From Tachypleus tridentatus (lineage: Eukaryota > Arthropoda > Merostomata > Xiphosura > Limulidae): a stretch of DNA of 64,000 nucleotides. Below, in pieces: positions 19,301 to 59,323 of the stretch; position 1 is the first letter of the stretch, and the number at the start of each line of letters is the position of its first letter. Made by a program: the position numbers and the translations under genes. Below the pieces are notes generated by a model. The model searched no databases, had not been told where the DNA came from, and saw nothing but the letters and a program-made list of their open reading frames with translations. The stretch lies in the NCBI RefSeq assembly GCF_004210375.1, contig NC_134837.1, positions 160,187,310-160,251,309 of the forward strand. The letters are read 5' to 3'.

Positions 19301-22300
19301 TCTAGCTATAAATAATTATTGACGATGTGGGTACAAACCCTAATTTATATATGTGGAGAAAAATTGGATTCTCATATCTAAAAGGTGTGAAATGTAGACA
19401 AGGCAAAAAAAATTAAGTCCTACATTGACAAAAATTAGGATTACAAGGGACATACTGAGCAATAATTTAGATAGAATACTGAATTAGATGCCACTAGTAG
19501 GAATGATATGTGAAGTAAAAACTATCTAAACATTCGTAGTAGACAAAGTACATAAAGCACCAAAATTTACCTGTTCGATAAAGTACTTAATAATAAAAAT
19601 GAATGTGTAAACTGACTAAAATTACCTAGAAAACAAAATAATAACCATTAAACTTATAATAAACTTAAATTAACTTAGATAACAAAGAACACAAATATTT
19701 AACTTAGCAAATTTCAAGAATTGATAACTTGAAATACAGCAACAGCAAAAGATGAAAGAAAACTAGCAAAATCACCCTTGTCTCAAACATGCAGAAAACA
19801 ATTAATATGCATTGACCAGGGTAACCAGCCCTGCATGCGTGTGTGTATAAAATGATGTGGAAGGTAAAATCTCCTGAAGAGGTGTAGAGTGAAATACCAG
19901 AATACGAAGATGCTTAAAAAGCAGAGTCCAAATTGTCTTCTCCTTGGTAGTATTTTTCCTAAGCAACATTATCAGTTTAAAAGGAAGAAATATAAGAAAT
20001 TGCAGCCAAACATCTTAATCTACCTCATGTGAATTAAGGCATGCACCTCCTCTGCAGATAAAGTCAAACCTGATTCCTGGGAAGTCATATTAGTAGTGTT
20101 GTCAACTGGCACTATCAAGCTGATACACTGAATTGAAATTTACATGAAATTATTTTTTAATTCAGTGACAAGAAACAAATGCAAAAAAAAAATCTTAAAC
20201 AATGAAAGTACAGTGTGCTAGGAGTTCTGCAATGGCAAACCATTCAGATGACAGAAAAGCTTTTTTTATTTATGCATATTAGTACACTTATTATTACTCA
20301 AACAATGCATTCAAGTAAAGACACTTTAGTTACAGAAATTCTGAAGAAATGCAACACAAAAAAACAAACAGACTGTATAAGGGTAGGATACAAGTCAAAG
20401 TTGTTACTGCCAGTCAGAATTTTTTACATTTGATAAATGCTTTACACTACTTTCATGGTTATATAACTACTTCAATAGGTACAGACAAACAATAAACAGA
20501 AATAACTGATGAAAGGAAGACAAGCTATATGTAGTTGAAAAGTAAAGATAAAATATTTAAAAAATAGCAAACATAGGGATGGTTAATAAAAATCATTTAA
20601 AAAGCAACACAAACATTTTCTACACTGTGTGTCTGTGCTATTATATATGGATAATACGAATGCTGTCCCTACTATCTTGTATTGCTTTTTACTCATTGAT
20701 ATTAACCATCCCGACACTTATTTCCTTTATTGAAAGTTTTTCCTTACTTTTTATGCAGTGTTTTAATAGATACAAAAATGTTGTAATCATAACCGAGTTC
20801 CAAATGCAATGATTCAAATTGTAATATTATTGTTTATCAATTATTAACTGGTAATTTCTGTTTTACTCTGTACTTGAGGGAATACCAAATTTGTGTAAGA
20901 AAGCTAACTTCAAGGGGTAATGATACATCATATACAATAGAATTATGATTTTCATATCTTAATAACAAGTTATTAATAATATTTATAAAAGTGGATACTT
21001 CTTTTGAAAGTGTCCCCTGAGTGAAACTGGTTGACATCAATGTTTAGGTTTTTAAGTTATCAATTAATAAAAAAAGATGAAGATAGAACAACAAATAATT
21101 CAAATATTCTGCTGTAATATTTAAAGAACTTATGAGTCAGTCATTAGATATTGTTATAAAAAAAAATCACCATAAAGTTCTGATGATCTACTGAGGAAAT
21201 ATTTCAAATACCATTTTGATGAACAATTTGAACTGTCCAAACACAGGCAATGATACTGCTGCCTGATATACAAGATAAGAGTTTCTTATCATTTTTTGCT
21301 TCAATTTCTTTCATGTTTTTAATAGTTACTTTGTCTGTAAAACCTTGTGTGAACAGACAAGAAAATGAGAATTCTATTATTAGAACAGACAAATTAGGGT
21401 AAATATTTCAAGTGTTAAAACAAAAAAGAACAGGAAAGGGTGACAAAATGTAAACATTAGTCTGGCTAAGGTTAAAGGACAGATTAAAACTGGAAACTTA
21501 AATGGTCATTAATTACAAAAAGTTTGTTGTTCTCAATACTTACTTTTCAACACAGAACTTTTTTTATAATTTGGAAAGTCAGTCAGCAAGAGCTTAAAAA
21601 TAGTCTTTTTAATTTTCTATACTTTTTAAAGCAATAAAGGTAAACATTCTGATTTCACAAGCGGCTTAAATTTTCTGAAGCACTTTTTAAGCTATCAGAA
21701 AAAAAAACCCTATAAAATTGCTTATTTCAGACTGATAAGTAATATATTCTGGATTTATAAAGTTGCAAATCATGTGTAAAATGGTATAAATAAAGAAAAA
21801 GAACTAATTTTTCTCTGTTTTCATAAACTTTTAGCACAAAGCTACTCAAAGTCTATCTACACCAGCCTTCCCTAAATTTCATGTGATTGGTTTGGTTTGA
21901 ATTTTGTTCAAAGCTACAAGAGGGCTATCTGCGCTAGCCATCACCACCCACTGCCAACTCTTGAGCAACTCTTTTACAAACGAATAGTAGGATTAACCGT
22001 CACATTATAATGTCCCCATGTCTGAAAGGGCAAGCATGTTTGGTGAGACCGGGATTCAAACCTGCAACCCTTGGATTACGAGTCGAATGCTTTGACCACC
22101 AGGCAATGCCAGGCCTTTCCAAGTGATAGACTAGAGCAGGGGTGTGCAACAGGCGGCCCGCGGGCCACAACCCGGCCCGCCAAGCCATTTAGTGTGGCCC
22201 TAGTTGTTGTAATCTAACCATGTGGCCTGATCTGTAATCCAACGCAAATGGAATATTTTTAAAAGCATCGATCCTACGGGATTCCCAGGCTTCGACTCGA

Positions 22301-25300
22301 CAAACTTCTAAAATTATCTTTGCTAGAGAGGAGCAGGCCGAATTCGATTGGTCGGCCTTCTTAGGGCATGAATAGGTGACGTGCACTAGCACTATTGTCT
22401 ACGACTCAACGTCATGTCCTGAACCTCGCCTTCGCCCGCTGGCGACAATTTTCCCTAACCTCTGCTGTCCGTCATTCATTATTGGTGAAAATTTTATTAC
22501 CTTTTACAGTTACTACAAGAGATTGAAGGTAAATTGATTATTATTTAGCATATTGTTGTGACTTTACTGAATTTATTAAAATTTTTGCTTTCAGATGCAT
22601 CTGATTCTATGTACAGTGTGACCTCGTTATTCGCGGGGGTTACGTTCTTTACCCTCCCGCGAATAGCGAAAAACCGCGAATATTGGATGCAGTTTTAAAA
22701 CGTATATGTATGCGATTATATACTATATGAAATGCTTCCCAAACACTAATGATACTTATACTCATTGATGCAGTAATATTGCATACTGTTATGTATTTCA
22801 CTAAATTGTACCGTGCGTTACCGGGCTGTGCTTTGCCGTTTGCGTTGTTGGGGAAGCTGAGGCAGTCAGCCAATAGCAGTCCAATCTTGTTTGGTGAAGA
22901 TGACAATTGATAAAAACGGCTTGATTGAGTAAATACAACAGAAATCTCCTCGAAAAGCCCTTTCAGTCTCTGTGACCTACAAAAACGCAGTTTAGAAACA
23001 TGTGTTTCTGTCCACAAGAGGTTCCATGTGTAAATAAATTCTATGTTTTTTTCTACTTTGCTATTTTCGTGAGAATAATTTTTGTTTTGATTTCAGGGCT
23101 AGTAAAATGTCAGCAGTTAAGAAACGAAAAATTGATGATGAGGGAAGGTTATTCAACAGTGAATGGTGCACAAAATATCTTGTTGTCCCACATTATCAAG
23201 GTGTTGTCTGCCTTGTCTGTCAAACTACAATTGCAGTCATGAAAGAGTACAATATTAAGCGACATTACGCAACTAAGCACTCCTCCCAGTTTGATGAAAT
23301 TGTTGGTCAGGCACGAAAGGACAAATTGAACATTTAAAAACATCCATTGAAAAGCAACAAGGTGTTTTACCACTTTCAAGAAAAATTCAGAACTGGTGAC
23401 AAAACTGAGTTTTAAGCTTTGTGAATGTATGGCAGAAAAGGGAAAGCCTTTCAGTGATGGAGAATTTATTAAAATTGTTTAACAATATTCACAGAATATG
23501 CATGTCCAGAGAAAAATATTTGGTGGAGCAAACTAGCCTTTCCCGCTTTACTGTCTCACGCGGGACAAAAGATCTTTCAGAGGACATCAAAGAAACTTTG
23601 AAAGAGAGATTGAATTAGTGTGAAGCTTTCAGTCTGGCTTTGGATGAAAGCACTGATATCAATGACACATCCCAACTTGTCATTTTCATCAGAGCTGTTA
23701 CTGCAGGCTTTGATGTTTTCAAAGAGTTTTAGATATGGCAAGCCTTTCCTCCACAACCACAGGACAGGATATTTGTGAACAAGTGCTTAAGGTTGTAGAA
23801 AAGTGTGAACTGAATCCTTATAAATTATGTGGTGTTACAACAGATGGTGCTCCTTCCATGACAGGTAGGACAAATGGATTCAGCAAGAAATTTCTAACTG
23901 CAATTGGAGCACAAGACATAGTTGTAAGCCATTGCATTATTCACCAAGAGAGCTTGTGCACCAAAGTTCTGGATTTTGCAGAAGTCATGAAAAATGTCAG
24001 GTCAATGCGTAAATTATATTCAAACACGAGGATTAAATCATCGACAATTTAAAACTTTTTTAGATGAGCTGGACAGTGAGTATTCAGATGTTTTGTACTT
24101 CTCTGCTGTACGTTGGCTTAGTAGAGCTGCTACTTTGAAGAGATTCTGGAATCTGCGAGAGGAGATTAAGTTCTTCATGGAGAGCAAATGTCAGAATGTG
24201 GACTTCTTGAGCAATGAGAACTGGCTGAATGACTTAGCATTCCTCACAGACATTACACAGCATCTGTCTGATTTAAACTTAAAACTACAAGGGAAAAGTC
24301 AACTTGTGAATAAGTTGTTTGAGCATATTTGTGCTTTTGAGAAGAAATTGGAACTTTCCAGGTTCAGTTGAGAAGAGCCATATTGACCCATTTTACATGT
24401 CTTGCAACCAGGAAACTGGAATTTCCTAATCTGGATTGCACCAAATATGGAACCAGTGTACAAAAGCTGCGGATGAGTTTGCAAACAGATTTCCAGATTT
24501 CAGACAAACTGAAATTAGATTGAAATTGTTCGCTCAACCTTTTGATTTGGCAGTGGAAGATAGTCCTGATGATTGCCAAATGGAACTCATTGAACTGCAG
24601 GCTGACATGGACACTAAAAGGAAATTCTCTGAAAACAGTTTGCTAGACTTTTACAAACTCTGTAATGCGTGAAAAGTTTCCCAATTTGTCCCGTCATGCA
24701 CAAAGAATTGCCTCCCTTTTTGGTAGCACCTACTGCTGTGAGCAATTTTTCTCCAAAATGAAGCTCATCAAAACCAAATGTAGAAGTCAGCTGACTGATG
24801 AACATTTGACCAGTCAGTTAAGAGTGGCAACCACTTCTGTCAAAGCTGATATTGACAAGCTCTGCAAGGACTCTAAATTTCAAGTGTTGCACTAAAATGA
24901 TCACTCATGCAAAATATAAAATATTATTGCTTGCATTTTGAGAATTTTTTTTAATTTATTGTGCATGTACACGAATAAGCTTGTTTTTTAAGTGGCCCCG
25001 CTTGATTGATGAAGTTGGTTATATGGCCCACCGACGAAAAATGTTGCACATCCCTGGACTAGAGGAAAGGCAGCTGTTCAACACCAACTGCTGCTAAATA
25101 TTGGGCTACATTTGCTATTGATTTACCAAGGAATAGTGGAATTCACCATTACCTGGAAATACTCCAATGGCTAAAAGAGTGACCATATTCAGTGAAAGAT
25201 TTTGATCCTGTGACCTACAAATTGCTAGTCCAGTACCCTAAAAATCAGACCCTTAGAGATGGAATAAAAGGATTACAAAAACAAATAGGTCCAAGATTTA

Positions 25301-37300: not shown

Positions 37301-40300
37301 AAGAATTTAATTTAACAAGTCGTACTATATAAACATCTCTCACTTTGGCTACTGGCAAGTTTTATGCAATTTAATTTAATTTGTTATGATGATTTTTGAT
37401 AACTATTAAACTGGTAACAATTTGTCTTTATATAACTATTGGTGCTGATTAAGTGCATCTACACATGAATCCAACATCATGATACACATAGGTAAAATGT
37501 TTTGGGCACAAGAAGTCCAATTCCCACAAACCAAAGAAACTAGAGGTTTGCTGTAGGTGGAGAGACAACAAAATTGAGTAAACAAATCATTTTTTATGTT
37601 AAATGGAAAGGTATATTATTTAACACATGAAAATCTGGTAAAAAAAAACTGAAAGTAATAATGCTGTTATAGGTTTTATTTCCTATGTACTATGATAGGA
37701 ATACTACAAATGTTGTTGTCCACAAATCTTTAGTTATGACACACAGTGAAGTGAGAAACTTAAAAAGTGCTAAGTCATTTAATTCCAATTAACATTCATG
37801 TATAAATCATGCTTCTTGTTGCAAATAAAAATAATTCTAAATATTTTTTTTACCTGCCTAGAGTGTGTGTATATTGATTACTTATTACATGCCACAAGTG
37901 TTACATCACTTGATGTATGCTCACCAACAGGAGAAAAGTCATATTCAAATTACTGAATACTTATCTTTAGTAATGAAATACTTTAAGACAATGATAAATA
38001 CATTTATTCACTCATTAATGATTATGATATATATGGAAGACAGTTTTGTTTCCATCTTTAAACTGTGAGTATTCTTTGGCACATAAATCCAACCTGTGCA
38101 TGTAAAGTAATTCTGATATGTTTTTGCTTATTGGTATCCCATACTTAGGGCTTAATTTTCAGTAAATTATTAATGTATTTTACATTAATTGTCAGATACT
38201 ATTTAACAAAGAAATATATTTGCATGTTCTTATAAAAAAAATGCAAAAGCTCTCCAAAAATAATTATTATGAAAAAATTTCTTAAATACTATTACAATCT
38301 AAGATGAGGTGTATTCCTTGCAATTATACAAGTTTCTTTAAATAGCATTGTCCAGCTTCATGTTATTTTTATCATCTTCAAGCCCTAATCCAACCCTCAA
38401 CAAACTAAGCAAAATGCAAGTGCTATGAGTGATAATATAGAAAAAAAACAACACAAAGTATAAGCAGCATGTTTATGAAACCTAAAGTATTAATTTAGGT
38501 GCACACCTTGTATGTTTTTTTCTAAATATTATTATAACTATTTTTAACTGCAAAACTTCAAAATAATTTTTTCTCTAACTTATTTTCATATCAATCATAT
38601 CACAAGAAATAAAAATTTTGAAATTGCTTGATTATATCACATCTGAGATACTAATAATGATTTTATAGCTTTCTGATTGACTTTATTATTAAACTTAGTA
38701 GTAGTGTGTAAGTATAAATAAACAACGAAAGTATTACAAATTTATCATTAGTGCTAGATGTCCAGTTGGACCCACCCCACCCCCACCATCCTGGAACATC
38801 TATTTTGAACAGGTTTCTCAAAGTACAGATCTCTAACAAGCTTTAACATAGTTTACAACATTTATGACTCGCATATCTAACATTTTTTAACTAACAGTAC
38901 TTACTCCATCTACCTGGCTCTAACATTTCTCTATTTTATTTGCTTTATGTATATCATTGTTCATCAAATGCCATGTACCGATTTCTGAATGTGTTCTGAA
39001 ACAATTTTATTTCTATAAATGAAATACTACTACTGATTTTTTAATAAGTTTATTCTTGGTATTTTTAGGGTGATAATGTTTAACTTTTTTAAAAACTTGT
39101 TTGAAAATATCACTAAGTGATATGTTTATTTTCATCGACAGTATTTCAGTAGTTTTAGTAAAACTTGATGGAGAAACCCATGGAATACTGTTGATGTTAT
39201 TACTTTCAGGTTGTTATAGGTTTTGTATTACTTTGAATGTGTGATACATTCTCAAGTACAAATTAATAGGATGTATACAATACTTTACTTCTAAAGGCAG
39301 GATTTCCTCTTGTTTTTCATATATTTTTGCCACAAATTGTATGGGAATTTTATATGTTAATTCTAAGTACTTACACAATTTTCACTCAAATATATTTCAT
39401 TATCAACATTTTGTCATATTCTGACACTTAATGTAATTCATGAAGAAAACTGGTGATATTTTTTATTCTACACAACTGCAGTGTTACCAGTAAACAAAAA
39501 ATAAATTTATACTTGTCAGTTTTTAACCAAATTTTCACACCTATCTTAAAGAATAACCTTATGAAAGTATCACCCTATTAAGAATATATTATCAATTTCT
39601 TGGTTTTCAAGTATTTCTCTGAGCTCCTGTATAAGACTTTGGTGAAACCTTACAATACAATTTCAAGTGTTTAATCATTTAAAAATGAAACACAACTTTG
39701 AAAATAGCTATGAAGATTTATGTAGTGTTGTTCTTCATCTCAAACAGTTGGCAGATGGGGAAAAAAAAAAAAGAGTCAAACAAGATGATTGCCTTGACTC
39801 TGAGTTTGTTAAAAAAAAAATTGGGAAGTTTATACAACAGTAAGACTCCTGGGCCAGATAATGTCTCCAAGAGTTTTGAAAAAAAATTGATTTTTTTTTT
39901 GGAAGTCCTTGAATAATTGGCAGGTGTCGAAGGATTGAAAGTTAGCTAATAATACTCCCCTTTTCAAAGGAGGTAATAAAAATTGTCTCAGTAACTATAG
40001 GCGTATTAGCCTTATATATATAATCAGTTGTGGAAAATATTTTGGAAAGTCTGGAAAAAATGCTTCTTTGAAAAGGTATTTAATAAAGTTTAGAATTTCA
40101 TTAGGTAGTCAACATATTTCACTAAGGGAAAATCTTGTCTTATAAATATTTGACATTTTTTAAATAGGTTACTGTTTGCATATTTGGAGGTAAAATTATA
40201 TATTTGGTTATCTGAACTTTTAGAAAGCATTTAACAAGGCACCACAAAAGGCTTTTTAAAAAATGATTAACTCTGTAAATGTGAGGGATAAGTCAGCTAA

Positions 40301-43300
40301 TTCTACAGAAGAATGGCTCAATGGAAGAAAGCAGAGGTTTTAAATAGAGTTCAAACTGGATCAGTTATAAATGGAATACACCTTGGGGCTCAGAATCTGT
40401 GCTTTTTTTATTTACATAAATGATACAAGAAGGAAAAGTTAATAAACTACTTAAGTTTGCAGACATTAAGATCGTGAGTTTTGCTATCTGTGAAGAGGAT
40501 ACTGTTGCTTTATGAAAAGATTTATATAATTTAGTAAGTTGGGTAAATAAATGGTAGATAGGTTTTAATTATAATAAATACAAAATCATATATGTGGGTT
40601 TTCACAATTAAAATTATAAGTGTAATTTAAATGGGAATATCCTTAACAATATCATGAAAGAAAGGAATCTTGGTGGAATGGTTGATCAGTCTCTGAAACC
40701 CATTTAACAGTGTGCTGTTACCAGTGAAAGGTCAAATATAATTTTAGGTTCAATCTACAGAAATATTGAATACAAGTCTAGTGGTTACAATTTCATTACA
40801 CAAGTCAGGCCACAATTGGAATATTGTGTTCAATTTCAGGCTTTTTATCTTAAGGGCACTGAATTGTTAGAAAGAGTTCAGAGGACTACAAAAAATTAAG
40901 GTCTCTGAAAATGTATCCACTCTGATTGATTGATTCATTTAGTGTTTTATGGCACAAAGCAGCGAGGCTATCTGCGCCAGACATTCGGTAAAAATGTAAA
41001 ATAAATAAATGTACTAATAGACATAAATGGAAATGAAGGTAGAACAAAAAAGTATAAAACCAATGTTGACACCTAGTCTACAATGTTAAGATAGAAGGCA
41101 GAGTATAAGAAGTTGTAAGGAATTTACTCTAGCAAAAAGGTAATGATCATAACCCGCCAGGAAGACAAACAGGTAAGTTCAAGAACCACCGTCAATCACC
41201 TGAAGTTGGTCTTTCCAGTCCTGGTTCCAGGTTATGTGTCATAGCAACCAGTATCAAAATGTAAAAGAATAGAAGTTTTAAAAGATACATAGCAAAATTG
41301 TAACAATGAGTAGCCAAGTGTCCAGTAAAAAGATAAAGTCAAGTAAATGGAGTAAAATTTGTAAAAGTAAATGAAGGTAAAAACAAAACAGCAATTAAAA
41401 CAGAAAATGGTGTAAAAACCAATGGTGACATCCAGTCAACAAAGTTGTAAAGGACTACCTGTAGCAGAATGGTAATGATCATAACCCGCCAGGAAGACTA
41501 ACAGGTAAGTATAAAAACCACCGTCAGTCACCTGAAGTTGGCCTTTCCAGTCCTGGTTCTGGGTTATGAGTCAATATGGCCAGAACTAAAAAGTAAAGTG
41601 GTAAAAGTGTGAAATGATATGCAGCAAAAGTATAATAACAACTCGCCAAAACGACTAACGAGTAGTTCAAACGGATAGTTCAAACAGTAGCGTTAGTCAC
41701 TTGAAGTTGGCCTTTCCAGTCCTGGTGTCGAGTTATTTAATGTTCTGGCCATTGTCCAATGTCATATTGAATGAGAGAGATTAAAACTGTGAAAAAGGAA
41801 CCACAATTAAAAAGGTGTAATGAATAAATATGCAACACTTAAATGAGATTAAAAAGATTAATGGCCATTAAAAAATTAAAAACATTATCAAGTTGGACAG
41901 AGTCACCATCACCAATAACTCTGTCCAATGTTACAGACTGACCCTGGGAAAAAATATGTTTAAAATATTGCCGTCGTTGAGAATTGTAACGATGGCAAGA
42001 AAGTAAAACGTGGCTGATAGTGATTTGAGTGTTACACAAACTACACATTGGTGCATCAGTTCCAGATAAAAGAAAATGATGAGTTAAAAAACTGTGACCA
42101 ATGCGTAGCCTAGTGAGAACAACTTCCTCCTTCCAAACTTTACGGAAGCTAGATGGACAAAGTCCAATTTTGGGTTTGATTTGAAAACGTTTGTTGTCGC
42201 GTTGCTCACTCCAAGTGGACTGCCAGCTGGCACGGAGCTGAGCCTTGAAGACAACACCATAGTCCATGTACAGAATAGGCATAGGAGTGATGGTGCTGAA
42301 GCAGACATATTTAGCTGCCATGTCTGCAAGCTCGTTCCCTCGAATACCAAAATGGCCTGGTATCCAGAAAAACTGGATTGAAGTAGCTGCTAATGAGAAA
42401 TGGGCCAGTCGGTTTCGAATATCAGCGAGAATAGGATGTGAGCTGACGTGTAGCGATTCCAAGGCAAGTATAGAACTAAGCGAATCAGTATAAATAGTGC
42501 AGTTGGAGTACTGCTCAGCTGCAATATGATCCAGGGCAAGAGTATTGGCATAAAGTTCAGCAGTGAACACAGAAGCTGTAGAAGGAATTCTGCGCACAAC
42601 TACTGACTTATAGCAAACCATAGCAGAGCCCACTGAATTACCTGATTTGGAACCATCTGTATAAATGGGAACTGAATGACTGTTTGAAAGATATTCATTG
42701 AATAAAAGACGGTACTTCCAATCTGGAGTATCTGCCTTTTTTAGGTGACTGAAAGAAAGGTCACATTTGGGGGCTGTAATAAGCCATGGTGGGATGGGCC
42801 GACCTGTGGAATCTGCAATGTTATCCAAGGACAGACCCAATTCATCCAATTGCGCCCGGATGCGAAGGCCAAACGGAGCAATGACAGATCGTCTGTTCTG
42901 AAAAAGTACTGCCCACCGAGGAAGAAAAACACATTTCCAGGTGGGATGCTTTGGTAAGGAATGAAGTTTCGAAGTATATTGTAAAGATAGTTGCAAACGG
43001 CGAAGGTGTAGAGAAGGTTCATGAGATTCAATGTATATACTTTGAACTGGTGAGGTACAGAAAGCCCCAGTGCAGAGTCGAAGTCCTTGGTGATGAATGG
43101 GGTCCAGCATCTTTAAGGCCGAGGGTCTGGCAGAGCCATAGACCATTGATCCATAATCGAGTTTCGATCTAATAAGAGCACGGTTACTTTTAACACTGAA
43201 CAGCGATCTGCCCCCCAACTGGTAGAAGAGAGAACACGGAGGATGTTCAATGCTCTTGTGCATTTGACCCGAAGCTGCTTTAAGTGTGGTATAAAGGTCA

Positions 43301-46300
43301 GTTTACGATCAAAGATAAGCCCCAAGAACTTGGTCTCCGGGACCACTGGCAGCAAAACTTCACCGATATGAAGTTCAGGATCAGGGTGAATACCCCGTCG
43401 ACGGCAAAAGTGCATGCATACAGTTTTGGAGAGAGAAAAATTAAAGCCGTTCGCCAGAGTCCACTTCCGTACACAATTGAGGGCAGTTTGTAGTTGCTGC
43501 TCAATATATCTCATGTTTGACGACTGACATGAGATGTGAAAGTTGTCGACATACAGCCCATTCGCAACAGTGAGAGGGAGTTGTTCAGTGATGGCATTTA
43601 TCTTTATACTGAAGAGTGTAACACTCAATACACATCCTTGAGGGACTCCAAGTTCCTGTACAAAAGAACGGGAAAGTGTCGAACCCATACAAACTTGGAA
43701 TCTCCTGTCCATTAAAAATTTTTTAATAAACATGGGTAGATGGCCATGTAACCCATATGTATGGAGGTCTCACAAAACGCCATACCTCCATGTTGTGTCG
43801 TAAGCCTTCTCTATGTCAAAGAATATTGATACAAGATGTTGGCGGTTGAGAAAGGCTTCTCTGATAGATGTTTCAAGATGAATTAGGTGGTCTGTGGTGG
43901 AGTGCTGTCGACGGAACCCACACTGGGTGGGCGAGAGGAGGTTGTTTGATTCAAGGAACCAAACAAGACGAGCATTAACCATCCTTTCTAATGTCTTACA
44001 GAGACAGCTCATCAAAGCAATTGGACGGTAGTTTGAAGGAGTCTTGGGATCTTTCCCTGGCTTAGAGAAAGGTAAACTAATAACCTGGCACCAGGCATCA
44101 GGAAAAACATTCTCCTGCCAGATCCGGTTGAAAACAATCAGAAGGACACCAAGAGAAGCAGGAGATAGATGGTGCAGCATGTCATAATGAATATCATCAG
44201 GTCCAACAGACGTACTGGCAGACCGATGAAGGGCCATTTTTAGTTCCACCAGGGTAAAGGGACAATTATAGTCAAAGAAACAGTCAGTTCGAGAGGAAAG
44301 AGGTGATCGCTTTGCCCGAGTCTTGATGGCCAGGAAGGTGGAGGAACAAGCAGAAGTGCTAGATACCCGGGAAAAGCTTTCACATAGAGTGTTAGCGATG
44401 TTCCGAACATCAGTCACCTCCTGACCATCAGAGAGTAAGATCGAGAGGGGGACAGAATTGTAGTGCCCATTAACCTTTCGAATCCTGTCGCGTATGATCT
44501 TGGAACTGGTGGTAGAAGATATGCTGGTTGTGAATTTAATCCAAGATTCCTTCTGGCTTTGACGTCTTATCCACCTAGCATGTGCACGGGCCCGTTGGAA
44601 AGCAACCCGGTTTGAAAGTGTGGGATATCTACGAAAAGTATCCCAGGCCCGCTTTTGAGCCTTCCGTGCTAAGTGGCAAGCAGGATTCCACCACGGACGA
44701 GGATATCGTGGGAAAACGTGTCGAGGTTTTAGGAATACACTGAGCAGCTGCATGTGTAATACAGTCAGTTACCGCTGCTACACAGTCGTCTATTGATGGC
44801 TGATTTACGATGACAGGATCAAGTTCTGCGAGAGCAGTGAAAGTGGACCAGTCTGCCTGATCCAGCTTCCACCGGGGCACGAGGGTCGGGTGGCATCGAC
44901 CACGGCCAGTCTCTCTCAAATAGTTCGGAAAATGATCACTGCCTAGTGGATTACTGTCAACCCTCCATGAAAAATGGGAGAATAATGAAGGGGAGCAAAC
45001 TGAGAGATCAATAGCTGTAAAGGACTGACTAGGTGCATGAAAGTAAGTGGAAGAACCAGTATTGAAAAGAGAAAAATTGTGATCAGAGAGGATCCGCTCT
45101 ACAGATCGGCCCCTCCCATCAATAACAGCACTTCCCCAGAGGGGATGATGTCCATTAAAATCCCCTAGGATTAGAAATGAAGATGGCAACTGTTCAACGA
45201 GAGCAACAAGATCTGATTGATCAGGGGATAGGTACAGAGAACAAACAGTGATGGTATGACCCAAGGAAACACGGATGACTACAGCCTCCAAGGGTGTGTT
45301 GAGTGACAAAGACAGGGTGGGCACATGTTGATCAACCAACAGTGCCACCCCTCCATGTACTCGACCATCACACAACCTGTCAATTCTGTACAGAGAAAAC
45401 TGCCAAATGGAGACAGTATCAGCAGTTTTGAGAAATGTTTCTTGTAAAGAAAGACAAACAGGATGGTAGGAAGCAATCAGTGTTTTGATATCATCCAGAT
45501 TAGAACGTAAACCTTGACAGTTCCATTGTATCAAGGTAGCCATTTTTAAGAATGGGTAGGTGAAGTGGCTGGAGAACCCTTCGGTTTACGACCACGCCTT
45601 TTTTCTTTACTGTCTTTAGTCGGAGGAAGTCTATCAACCCCCATGGATCCTGCTCTGGGTCGGGTGGGCAGGTTTTTGTCATTGGAAGGGGAATCCAGTG
45701 ACTGAGGATGCAAACGAATAATTGTTTTGTCTCTTGTGGTGGGAGAAAAAGATGTATCAGAAGAAATGCCTGTATTTGAAACTGAAGGACATGGATCTTG
45801 AGGTTTGTTGGAAGGTATGGGAGGAACAGAGATGGGTGTGGAAGTCGATTCATCAACCTTTTAACTACGGAGGTCAAAAGGCTTTTCATTTGTTTTGAAA
45901 ACGATTCTCTTGGAGGCACAGAGAGATCTGTCTGCACTCCCACTGTAGTTGTGAAATGAAGTGCAGCAGCATATGTCCGAGATGGAGTTGTGGACAGCAA
46001 TTTCCGAGCCTCAGGATAACTAATGTTATGTGTCGTTTTTAAACACTGCACCTCTTTCTTCCAACCATTTTGGGCAAGAATGAAAGTAAGAGGGGTGAGA
46101 ACCATTGCAGTTTACACAATGTGGGTTCATGTCACAGTCATAGGCATCGTGGTCCTTGTCTCCACAACGAGCACATATCAGGGAACCACGACATGATGTC
46201 TTTTAGTGGTCTGACATTGGAAACATCGAAGAGGGTTTGGTATGTATGGCCGAACCCTGCAAATGAGATAATCTGCCTTGATGGTGGCAGGTGCACATGG

Positions 46301-49300
46301 TGAAGTAAATGTCAAAACGAGGGTATTTGTTGGCAGTGTAACTCCATCTTTGCGAGTGGAGATGCACCTCACTGCAGAAACTCCTTGAGTGGAGAGACCA
46401 GCGAGAATCTCTGACTTGGGAACGTTCTTCAAATCCCTTTCAACAGTAACTCCTCGCGAAGAATTCAAGGTAGCATGGAGTGTAACCTCAAGAGGTATAT
46501 CCCCAATTGCCTTTGAATTCAAGAGGAGTTCACTGTGTTGAAATGTGGATGTTTCAACCAATATGTGACCAGATCGAAGTTTCTTTACTGACTTTGGAGA
46601 GCCAGCAACTCCCTCTAGTCCCTTTTGAATAAAAAAAGGGGACATTTGCCCTAATTGTTTTTCCAAAAGTGAATGTAATATAAGAAAATGAGGTGCGTGT
46701 GTTACAGATGTTGAAGATTGCTGTTCTGAGTATTCAAGATGTGGTAGTTTACCCATTGACTGTTTTTTTACAATTTTATTTAAAATTTTTGGAGGATCCA
46801 TAGGAAAAAGAAAAAATTTCGGTACCCACTGACCCCACCCACCATGGAGCCCTACAAGGGGATGCACTACAAAGTCATGCAAGGACAATGCAGCAACGCC
46901 AGGGTTTCGTGAGCACTATACCCAAACACCAGCATCAGGCATAATGTCCACAACACCCGTTGAGAACTTCCAACACTGGTACTTGGTTGACTCTAGCCCA
47001 AGTGGACCAGCCGATTGACCCAAGGGGGGCCACCCAAAGGCCGCCCGTCTACAGGAATTCGAGGCCAAAGTGGTGTGTAAGGGTTGGACCCCTCAACCAC
47101 CAGGATCCTCTCCTCCCCTTCACGGGTCGCCACACACGGCAAACACGTGGGTGGATGTTTAGATCCCAGAGAAGGTAACCAGATAGAACAGAACCTTTCC
47201 TGGGAGGTCCCCTCACCACGTACAGGAATCCACACCGAGGGGTCCACTTTGAAAAAAGAAGTTAGGGGTAATTTGATTAAGGTGTTTAATATTGTGAAAG
47301 GAATTGATAGTGTTGATGAATCACTTTTTTCATGCTTAAGTGATAACAGTAGAATGAAGGACACAAATTTTGACAAGGTAGAAGTTAAATTTAATTTTCT
47401 AACAGGGTGATTGGCCCCTGGAATGGGTTGCCTTAGGATGTTGTGAAGGCAGTAAATTTAAATTATAGAAAGCTGGATAAGTAAATCAATGATAAGGGCT
47501 AACTTTAAGATATTTCATTCAAGCTTATTTATTTAATATTTTTAGGTTAGAGAATTGGACAGCCAGGATGGACTTATTATGGACAATAAGTCCCTTGTTG
47601 TCCCTAAACATTAAGTAATAAAGTATATACAATTGAACAGATCAAAAATTAGACATCACATGTTGATAAATATATAGATTTAAGTTTTTATTTTACTTTA
47701 TGCAAATGTTTCTTTCATTGTGAAACTATTTTATCCTAAAAGAAAAACATTTTTATTATCTTTGTCTCAAATATAAAGCATGGAGTTATTACATATTTGA
47801 ATAACAAAATGTGGGTATCGTGTAATATTTACATTAGCAATTCATCTGCCAAACAGGAAATATTCACAAGACTAAAGATAAATATTTTCTGCAAACTTTT
47901 TCACAAATGTGCAGTTGGCAAACTTTAGAAGCTGTCTCTCCTATAAAAACTGAAAACTTAAAAAACAATATAACAAAAAATACAGGAAATTTAATACCAC
48001 ATTAGAATAATGAAGTGACTAAAAAAGTTAAGATTGTTAGCATACATTCATTTGACTGTTTTGTATTTTACAGGTTGTAGGAGGCTTGGTGTACTAACTG
48101 ATTAATGAATACCAACTAATCAATTAACAAACAGCACTAATCATCCAGCTCTAAAAAGTTCATTAGTTGATAGAAAATTGTGATTTCAAAGAAATTCACG
48201 ACCAGACTATGACCTTTCCTTTTGTCATATTTCAACCAATTTTTAATGTTTTTTTTATCTTATTCACAAACAGTTTTTATTTTCAAAGGCTTCATACCTA
48301 TTTTTTCTCAACTGCTTGTCTTTGACAAAAAATTAAAGCAATTGTCACATCTCGAAGGAAATCAGAATATGGTGCATACAGACATGTTATTTGTAATTCA
48401 CATAGTATTCTGAATATGCTATGGGCTTGACCTCTATACTGTTACAGTATCAGGTCACCTAGTGACTGTTCTAAGGATAACATAGTGCATTTGAATTGTC
48501 TGACAATAATTCTGATTGTTTCAATCAGAAACCATTTATTTTAAACATTGGTAAAAAACAAAAAAATTCAACTGAAACAGACAGTTGATCAAGGAATGGA
48601 TTCACAGACAACCTATAAATTTCCATGTTGAAGAAAACATTCTTAATTAGGTAATTTTTATAATTTTTTTATGAAATATTCCAATGAAACCTTATAATAT
48701 GGGTGTGAATATCCATTTTTCTAAATTCTCAAAGTTTTCCACTTCTGCATAATAAGTCATTATTAACATGCACATCATAAGCAACAGATGTCAGATAATT
48801 TCTTGTTATTTTTATAACAATGCCGATTTTCAAAAATATCAAAATAAACAACTTATCTAACAGTTCTTTTACATTACACAACCACATTACCTTAAGACTT
48901 AACCTGTTTTAAACATCTTAGAATTAAAGGCTCTCACCACTGTTAACAGTTAATGGTCAGATGTCAGTATTATTAACAAGTCCTTATTAACTAAAGTTTA
49001 CAAAGCTATAGTTTATCTCTACCATGCACATGAAAATAATACAATCACAAGTTGGCAAACATTTGACTTTTAGTGGTGTGAATACGTTCCTCAAAACATC
49101 AGATCATTACCACAACCCAACCTGACTAAGGAATAAAGTATTTTTTTCACCAACAGCTGCCAAATGAACATTTCAACACTTCTTGAGGTCATATGACTTA
49201 CTCCATAAGAACATAAAACAATGGCAGATACAAGTTTGTTGTTACTCATATTGTGATTAGTTCATTTTTATTTTGTTGAAAATCGTAACATTTCACTTAG

Positions 49301-52898: not shown

Positions 52899-53096
52899 CG
52901 AATTCTACATAAATAGCCTACAGAATATGGTGACTCATTAAAGGTATTTGTAGTATTATACTATTGGCAAAACACTTGACGGCATGGAAAGCACTGGAAA
53001 TATATTTACCTGAGTTAAGGTTACCATAAAATACGGGCTCGACAGTAGTGAAGTACAAAGCGAATCGATTTGTGAGTATGGTGTCTGCACTTATAA

Positions 53097-53326
53097 GGCC
53101 CGGCATGGCCTAGCGCGTAAGGCGTGCGACTCGTAATCCGAGGGTCGCGGGTTCGCGCCCGAGTCGCGCTAAACATGCTCGCCCTCCCAGCCGTGGGGGT
53201 GTATAATGTGACGGTCAATCCCACTATTCGTTGGTAAAAGAGTAGCCGAAGAGTTGGCGGTGGGTGGTGATGACTAGCTGCCTTCCCTCTAGTCTTACAC
53301 TGCTAAATTAGGGACGGCTAGCACAG
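53097..53326 (+). mobile_element. SINE-A copy, lacking the LINE-like tail
   Basis: Head ggcccggcatggcctagcgc (A box), an anticodon-like loop ctcgtaa, and a B box (gggttcgcgccc), then the full central body ending acggctagcacag. The usual ctcgag...ctttgcgc tail is missing. The loop suggests descent from tRNA-Thr(CGT). Confidence 0.88.
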
Positions 53327-53343
53327 AAAATCCATCAGTAAGA

Positions 53344-53568
53344 TTGTTTGTTTTTGATTTTTGCGCAAAGCTGTACGAGGACTATCTGCGCTAGCTGTCT
53401 CTAATTTAGCAGTGTAAGACTAGAGGGAAGGCAGCTAGTCATCACCACCCACCGCCAACTCTTGGGCTACCCTTTTACCAACGAATAGTGGGATTGACCG
53501 TCACATTATAACGCTCCCACGGCTGGGATTACGAGTCGAGTGCCTTAACCACCTGGCCATGTTGGGCC
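53344..53568 (-). mobile_element. SINE-A copy in inverted orientation, B box deleted
   Basis: Full tail (ttgcgcaaagctgt ... actatctgcg) and body, but the segment that holds the B box is deleted between ccacggctg and ggattacgag. It sits tail to tail with the copy at 53097-53326. Confidence 0.88.
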
Positions 53569-54240: not shown

Positions 54241-55100
54241 CGAATCGAACTTAACACTACCAAAACTCAAGCTATCATATTCCTCAGAAAATTCAACATA
54301 TAATTAACAAAATTTAACAAGGTATTTGTGAAATTGAAAGAAACACCATTTGTTTTCAAAAACACTGTTAACTTTTTGTCATCATTTTTGTATAAAATTA
54401 TCCCAGGCCCCACACTCCAAGTCTTCAAAATCGGACAAATAACTCACGCTGCAGAACTCTCGCCGTAAAACTGACTTTTATTAAGTACATTAAAGACTAC
54501 GGGGCTTGGTATGGCCAGGTGGTTGGGGCACTTGACTCATAATATAAGGGTCGCGGGTTCGAATCCCCGTCACAATGTGATAGTCAATCTCACTACTCTT
54601 TGGTAAAAGAGTAGCCCAAGAGTTGGCGTTGGCTGATTATGACTAGTTGACTTCCCTCTAGTCTTTCTGTGATAAATTAGAATAACCCCAGATAGCCCTC
54701 GTGTAGCTTTGCACGAAATTAAAACAAACAAACAAACGGAGACTACGGAGCTGTGATAATGTGTAATATGGTCGAGAACTTCCAACATAAACTCCAGGCA
54801 TTACAAAGGAGCACAATCTGCATAACTCTACTTCGACAATAACACCCCTCTAGATGTTGCATAAACGAAAAAGGCATTTACCCTCAATTAACTTCAGATT
54901 AACGAAACTTGCTATTAAATTTTGCTGCCACTCTGCCAACAGAAACACGCAAACATTACATTTCGCTACCTTAGCAGCCACTCTCTTCTCTTGGCAAAGA
55001 TATACTTTCCTCTGTCAATAAAATCGCCAAAATTCAAAACTAATCCACTAAACATAAAGCATCTGTTAACCTCTATTTGGCTCATATAATCGCTTTTCAG
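54241..55100 (+). pseudogene. LINE reverse transcriptase remnant, split by a SINE
   Basis: Broken frames on both sides of the SINE at 54503-54739 read like the C-terminal part of jockey-type RTs: KTQAIIFLRK before it, then FIKYIKDYGAVI across it, and HKLQALQRSTICI after it. Stops and indels throughout; both limits are uncertain. Confidence 0.5.
54503..54739 (+). mobile_element. SINE-A copy with 9-bp target duplication
   Basis: A box (ggtatggccaggtggtt), B box (gggttcgaatcccc), body, tail cagatagccctcgtgtagct, and a simple-repeat end of aaac units. Flanked by AGACTACGG at 54494-54502 and 54740-54748. Confidence 0.92.
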
Positions 55101-55753: not shown

Positions 55754-56032
55754 AGTTTAATTTGCTTGCTTGGTATCAATTTTGCGCAAAGCTACTCGAG
55801 GGCTATCTGTGCTAGCCGTCCCTAATTTAGTTGTGAAATACCAGAGGGAAGGTTACTAGTCATTACCATCAATCACTAACTTTTGGGCTACTCTTTTATC
55901 AACAAATAGTGGGATTGATTGTACATAATAACGCCCCCACGGTTGAAGAAATGAGAATGTATAGTGAGATAGAGATTCGAATCCATTATCCTCAGATTGA
56001 TTGCGAGTCAATCACCTGGTCATGCCGGTACT
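55754..56032 (-). mobile_element. SINE-A copy with target duplication
   Basis: All SINE-A blocks are present in reverse, though the head is degraded. Flanked by CTTTAGAGT at 55745-55753 and 56033-56041. Confidence 0.88.
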
Positions 56033-56643: not shown

Positions 56644-56920
56644 GTGGTTTGGTTTGTTTTGAATCTCGCATGAAGTTATACGAGGGTTCTCTGTGTTAGC
56701 CGTCCCTAATTTTGCAGTGTAATACTAGAGGGAAGGCAGCTAGTCATCACCACCCGCCCACAGCTCTTGAACTACTCTTTTACCAAAATAGTGGGATTGA
56801 CCGTCACATTATAACGCCCCCACGGCTGAAAGGGCGAGCATGTTTGGTGTGAAGGAGGTTCGAACCCGCGACCCTCAGATTACGAATCGATAGTCTTAAC
56901 CACCTGGCCATGCGAGGCCC
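56644..56920 (-). mobile_element. SINE-A copy with target duplication
   Basis: Complete copy: tail, body, B box (ggttcgaacccgcg on the + strand) and the head ending gcgaggccc. Flanked by AATAACT at 56637-56643 and 56921-56927. Confidence 0.9.
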
Positions 56921-58785: not shown

Positions 58786-59062
58786 GTTTGTTTGTTTGTT
58801 TTGGAATTTCGCACAAAGCTACTCGAGGGCTATCTGCGCTAGCCGTCCCTAATTTAGCAGTGTAAGACTCGAGGGAAGGCAGCTAGTCATCACCACCCAC
58901 CGCCAACTCTTGGGCTACTCTTGTACCAACGAATAGTGGGATTTACCGTCATATTATACACCCCACGGCTGGAAGGGCGAGCATGTTTAGCGCGACGCGG
59001 GCGCAAACCCGCGACCCTCGGATTACGAGTCGCACGCCTTACGCACTTGGCCATGCCAGGCC
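58786..59062 (-). mobile_element. SINE-A copy, the cleanest in the window
   Basis: In reverse: a GTTT repeat, tail cgcacaaagctactcgaggg, body, B box region, anticodon-like loop, and head ending ggccatgccaggcc. Flanks aaatatggagac and aaatctggagac look like a 12-bp duplication with one mismatch. Confidence 0.92.
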
Positions 59063-59323
59063 TGAAATCTGGAGACATGACAGTAGCTCCAAACAAGTGA
59101 GAAAAGTGAATTACTATGATGGTATAAATATTCAGCTTCGGGGGTTCGCCCAAATCTGAGGTATTACCACAGTTGTTGTAATGCCAATTTTCCTATGTCC
59201 CTGAAAAAAAACACACTAAACACTCTGACATCGCATAGAAAAAGGCAGTTGACTGTTTGTCATAGATTCAAAAATAATAAGTCAAAACGCGTTTAAATTA
59301 TTGATCTTATAACGGGGGAGGTG

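Follow-up and report, generated by a model that had tools for sequence, protein, structure and literature searches.

In this study, we describe a short interspersed element of Tachypleus tridentatus, SINE-A, which has its 3' end in common with a non-LTR retrotransposon (LINE) located nearby. Both elements lie in one stretch of 64,000 nucleotides, the whole of which was analysed and is hereafter called the window. The 3' end of SINE-A probably derives from the 3' end of this LINE family, which has the layout of the I superfamily, or shares an ancestor with it. The shared tail is best read as the sign of a SINE-LINE partnership, in which the partner favoured is this LINE family or one closely related to it. 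The case for it includes a tail match confined to the final 60 bases of the 6317-bp LINE and the position of the motif inside an insertion bracketed by a duplication. Against it count the short homology (~32 nt), the unlike terminal repeats, the single LINE copy and the four of seven SINE-A tails which do not rise above background. A shared 3' end is described as a known mark of SINEs which use the reverse transcriptase of a LINE (PMC3747384).

Extent and coding capacity of the LINE

The LINE is degenerate, has a length of 6317 bp and an APE-RT-RNase H layout, and occupies positions 40926 to 47242 on the minus strand. Its boundaries were set by eye and then checked by script. A target-site duplication flanks the element, TCCACTCTGA at its 3' end (40916 to 40925) and TCCACTTTGA at its 5' end (47243 to 47252). 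The two flanks, whose likeness was first noticed by eye, have TCCACTYTGA in common, with 9 of 10 bases equal. A script that compared 40905-40940 with 47230-47275 found no other pair of 10-mers differing at one position or none. Since 5.7% of 2000 random draws of equal size hold such a pair, the duplication on its own is moderate evidence for the insertion boundaries. In an automatic duplication search of wider flanks the TCCACTYTGA pair stayed below threshold and was not listed; the search returned only an A/T-rich 12-base match (40888/48325) together with its shorter and shifted forms. The end of the LINE at about 40926 holds give or take a few bases, because the terminal repeat merges into the duplication. 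This outermost part (40926 to 40949, minus strand), beyond the hairpin described below, is made up of a brief AT-rich spacer and an AATC-type repeat.

Because the duplication brackets the whole LINE, tail included, the tail motif belongs to the LINE's own 3' end. That the motif is instead carried by an independent piece of SINE adjacent to the LINE was considered and ruled out, as the duplication encloses the motif. An older coding region of LINE-like appearance can be followed by eye in remnants on the plus strand, at 39600-40915 and again at 47253-47640. The 6.3 kb LINE seems to have inserted into this older region, and the interruption of the region at the LINE lends the boundaries further support, likewise by eye. 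Two short pieces of the older region were given to Pfam and had no match.

Nine pieces in all were submitted to Pfam, and four of them, all from the LINE, have matches, which are ordered along the element as APE endonuclease, reverse transcriptase (RT, two pieces) and RNase H. These four read on the minus strand. The APE-type endonuclease piece of ORF2 lies at 44632 to 45585 (PF14529, E 3.2e-18; PF03372, E 4.7e-16), the first part of the RT at 43773 to 44768 (PF00078, E 3e-14) and the second part at 43116 to 43769 (PF00078, E 1.3e-13). The RNase H piece (41842 to 43302; PF00075, E 3.7e-13) also includes a C-terminal Cys/His motif, seen by eye. The first RT piece matches the R2 and LINE-1 ORF2 proteins of known structure as well. 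Two probable ORF1 pieces have no Pfam match, among them one at 46181 to 46915 (minus strand) with a CxxC near its end. An APE-RT-RNase H layout marks the I superfamily, and APE endonuclease, RT and RNase H are all found in the ORF2 of this LINE. The expected RT motif is YxDD; in the second RT piece it reads YVDN by eye. The coding pieces are spread over several frames or broken by a stop, and the motif is altered, so that the copy in the window is very probably dead, as the sequence-only reading had proposed.

The 3' UTR (40926 to 41838, minus strand) contains diverged internal repeats at offsets of 169 and 332 bp, whose best 60-base stretches are 80% identical at offset 169 and 92% identical at offset 332. 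A motif like CCAGGACTGGAAAGRCCAACTTCA occurs in it three times. Tandem Repeats Finder did not report these repeats, though blastn and the offset comparison show them.

Among the first 20 matches of a blastn search of the window with the LINE, nothing appears but the element and its internal repeats. Seven fragments elsewhere in the window were obtained by tblastx (14-37 residues, 27-48% identity); they were taken for noise of linked short pieces. A second LINE end with a SINE-A-like tail was not seen within the 64 kb of the window. Apart from the LINE, two overlapping open frames at 23714-24371 (plus strand) resemble, by eye, a protein derived from a transposase, and the first of the two has no Pfam match.

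SINE-A copies in the window

A BLAST search with the 58.8 kb copy as query revealed seven SINE-A copies in the window, at 58.8, 53.1, 53.4, 54.5, 55.8, 56.7 and 21.9 kb. The 12 rows also include a weak match at 25057-25147 (71% over 91 bases), which was excluded from the alignments and masked in the tile scans. The copy at 58786 to 59064 (minus strand) is full, with a putative tRNA-Thr(cgt) head, the shared tail blocks at 58811-58839 and the target-site duplication GTCTCCAKATTT. A second full copy, its tail decayed, lies at 56644 to 56920 (minus strand) and has a possible duplication, AGTTATT, abutting both ends. Three copies carry an internal deletion. One of them (54503 to 54739, plus strand) has a decayed tail and the duplication AGACTACGG; another (53344 to 53561, minus strand) has a near-intact tail; the third (21826 to 22116, minus strand) has two consecutive tail blocks, the first of which joins the body via an apparent deletion between GCTAGC-like words (21826-21945, minus strand). 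The near-intact tail at 53344 faces the copy at 53096 to 53331 (plus strand; 3' limit approximate), so placed that 53096-53561 holds a tail-to-tail pair of which one member is without the distal tail. The remaining copy (55761 to 56010, minus strand; 5' limit approximate) is older and has near-intact tail blocks.

Target-site duplications were clear in two of the six copies scanned, the 53.1 kb copy being outside the scan. One belongs to the 58.8 kb copy and has a score of 9.5, which 3% of 300 random flank pairs equal or exceed; the other belongs to the 54.5 kb copy and has a score of 10.5 (2% of the 300 pairs). The duplication of the 56.7 kb copy (score 7) is weak, because 48% of random flank pairs score as high. 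For the copies at 53.4, 55.8 and 21.9 kb the flank scan gave no convincing duplication. Two features characteristic of a SINE, duplicated target sites and a simple repeat at the 3' end, are seen in SINE-A.

Four of the seven heads were given to ARAGORN. At a threshold of 80% two of the four were called, both as Thr(cgt); at 65% all four were called, three as Thr(cgt) and one without an assigned type. Neither ARAGORN at default settings nor Rfam at gathering scores reported a tRNA in the window. The head of SINE-A is thus predicted to be tRNA-Thr(CGT)-like at lowered ARAGORN thresholds only, and by eye at least two variants of it can be told apart in the alignment. SINE-A presumably resembles chelicerate repeats. 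Words of SINE-A had no exact match in the literature, and among the matches listed, going by titles and the first lines of abstracts, none describes SINE-A, which does not show its absence from print.

The shared tail and its predicted hairpin

The tail blocks of the LINE lie at 40950-40979 and read tggcacaaagcagcgaggctatctgcgcca on the plus strand; in the minus-strand sense they are GCGCAGATAGCC, TCG and GCTTTGTGC. In the 58.8 kb SINE-A the blocks lie at 58811-58819 and 58828-58839. Blocks common to the LINE 3' terminus and the SINE-A tail, to which the sequence-only reading had pointed, are thus present at 40950-40979 and at 58811-58839. Alignment of the final 60 bases of the LINE with the 58.8 kb tail gave a score of 33 over 32 columns, with 27 identities, 2 mismatches and 3 single-base gaps. 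None of 5000 dinucleotide shuffles (maximum 25) reached this score, nor did any of 20000 mononucleotide shuffles, the highest of which scored 26 (Gumbel p ~1e-6).

For the family as a whole, a majority tail was built from the seven SINE-A tails with the LINE left out; one of its columns was a 3-3 tie of T and C and was set to T, which matches the LINE. It was preceded by a majority tail from the 8-row alignment A1, in which the LINE was one row and the 53.1 kb copy was left out, since the distal tail is absent there. The majority tail made from SINEs only scored 33 at the LINE end, a value attained by 0 of 5000 shuffles. Among 12234 other non-SINE tiles its top score was 24. Another LINE of the window as a better match to the SINE-A tail was ruled out, no other non-SINE tile exceeding 24 with the majority tail, against 33 for the LINE end.

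Single tails differ in how well they match. The LINE end scored 33 with the 58.8 kb tail (best other tile 21), 31 with the 53.4 kb tail (26) and 28 with the first 21.9 kb tail (26), and in each case 0 of 5000 shuffles reached the score. The 55.8 kb tail scored 23, as did its best other tile (2/5000 shuffles). Lower at the LINE end than elsewhere were the second 21.8 kb tail (22 vs 27; 2/5000), the 54.7 kb tail (20 vs 27; 26/5000) and the 56.7 kb tail (10 vs 24; 4354/5000). Three of seven tails therefore stand above all tiles, one ties and three, all decayed, fall below, with better chance tiles elsewhere in the window than the LINE end. A 3' end common to SINE-A and the LINE is seen above all background with the majority tail and with these three single tails. 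The blocks had been said to occur in every tailed copy. This is true of four near-intact tails and is overstated for the family, because three of the seven tails are decayed and the 53.1 kb copy is without the distal part.

The two shared blocks of the LINE pair with each other as the arms of a predicted 3'-terminal hairpin (40950 to 40979, minus strand; -15.7 kcal/mol). A 41-nt piece with this hairpin had a z of -3.37, none of 200 shuffles folding equally well, and a 60-nt piece a z of -2.77, with 1 of 200 shuffles equally good. The same arms are able to pair in SINE-A copies, where competing folds are equally good. Two pieces of the 58.8 kb tail gave z values of 0.59 and 0.52 and the 55.8 kb tail 0.69; the 53.4 kb tail (z 0.46) has a best fold which includes the shared stem. 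The 54.7 kb tail reached -3.05, but with a different hairpin, and no special fold was found in the 21.8-21.9 kb tails (z -0.85 and -0.15) or the 56.7 kb tail (z -1.06). The shared stem is the best fold in few SINE-A tails. Three versions of the majority tail differ in their best fold: in one it includes the shared outer stem (-9.6 kcal/mol), in the second part of this stem (-8.5), and in the third it is another hairpin (-10.4). Across the LINE and the seven SINE tails, the named stem, which was picked from the same sequences as those tested, pairs in 83.3% of cells, vs 25-51% when slid; shuffling the columns gives 84.8% on average, and in 479 of 500 such shuffles the pairing is at least as high as that observed. 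None of nine stem pairs changes on both sides, and little covariation is to be expected because copies decay independently after insertion. From these folds it can reasonably be inferred that SINE-A and the LINE may share a 3' stem-loop, predicted to be strong in the LINE and weak in SINE-A.

Enzyme source and known SINE-LINE pairs

The terminal repeats of the two elements are unlike, AATC in the LINE and AAAC in SINE-A. An identical terminal repeat in both partners, as in the TS/RTE pair of tobacco and not known as a requirement of the class, was not found. Because of this difference, and because the homology extends over only ~32 nt, the LINE copy seen here is probably related to the LINE that supplied the enzyme and not itself the supplier. 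The sequence-only reading had suggested that both the parasite and its host enzyme source are seen in the window; what is supported of it is that the tails are alike beyond chance, that the motif sits at the LINE 3' terminus and that this LINE copy is broken. As the immediate source of the enzyme, this LINE family is a candidate.

The enzyme may instead have come from another subfamily of this LINE, or from a related family, with an AAAC end, which would make the window LINE a cousin sharing the hairpin core only. We consider the chances of this to be evenly balanced. It agrees with the unlike repeats, with the short homology and with the lack of any second LINE end with such a tail in the window, but no LINE ending in AAAC was seen in the 64 kb searched. 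Such a source narrows the best explanation and does not exclude it. According to PMC8010984, LINEs are said to swap the tails of SINEs, which would also allow SINE-A to have changed its partner later. Transfer in the opposite direction, in which the LINE acquired its tail from SINE-A, e.g. by template switching or by insertion beside a SINE remnant, is unlikely. Seven SINE-A copies in the window and a LINE that carries only the last part of the SINE would suit it; the longer and better-folding hairpin of the LINE, and the duplication which puts the tail within the LINE insertion, speak against it. Chance or convergent likeness of two short sequences, to which the shortness of the match and four single tails no better than the best unrelated tile might point, is highly improbable given 0 of 5000 shuffles for the majority tail and for each of three single tails and given the location of the match at the LINE terminus.

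Under the favoured partnership, the LINE RT would have attached to the 3' hairpin in the LINE's RNA and likewise to that of SINE-A RNA, and target-primed reverse transcription would have begun at the simple repeat adjoining the hairpin. A further and rather doubtful suggestion is that a LINE of I-superfamily layout may recognise a compact 3' hairpin and not the terminal repeat, the SINE keeping the core despite AAAC vs AATC. If true, the window would show a minimal recognition element of ~30 nt for an RNase H-bearing LINE.

A pattern of the hairpin and a core word of SINE-A had 0 matches in viral contigs and prokaryote genomes. Two ORF2 pieces of the LINE gave 2 and 5 pattern matches in viral contigs, and no relative was confirmed among them. 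Little can be read from this search for relatives, because neither collection extends beyond viruses and prokaryotes.

A further pair whose LINE bears RNase H would help to define recognition by I-type reverse transcriptases; beyond this question, there is nothing unusual in the pair, whose kind of relationship is well known. UnaL2 of the eel is an L2-type LINE without RNase H. UnaSINE1 and UnaSINE2 are like SINE-A in having their 3' end in common with their LINE, UnaL2 (PMC3747384 Table 1), and for the eel experiments are described which support the use of the LINE enzyme by the SINE (PMC3747384). In tobacco, TS and its RTE partner share ~100 nt and end in the same terminal repeat, compared with a shared stretch of ~32 nt in SINE-A and the LINE (PMC3747384). 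HaSE1 of Helicoverpa armigera is, like SINE-A, a tRNA-headed SINE of an arthropod with a LINE-like tail, that of HaRTE1.1; it differs in that its partner is an RTE LINE (PMC3272025). Gecko of Aedes aegypti, a close published precedent, is paired with the I-clade LINEs I-74_AAe and MosquI (PMC3747384 Table 1). In that 2013 table of SINE/LINE pairs it is the sole entry under Protostomes, and its LINEs are of I type. Gecko and MosquI are alike to the pair described here in comprising, in an invertebrate, a tRNA-headed SINE and a 3' end common with an I-clade LINE (PMC3747384), a likeness by description and not by sequence, with the window LINE placed by domain layout alone. Set beside these systems, SINE-A and its LINE look like a new example of a well-known relationship.
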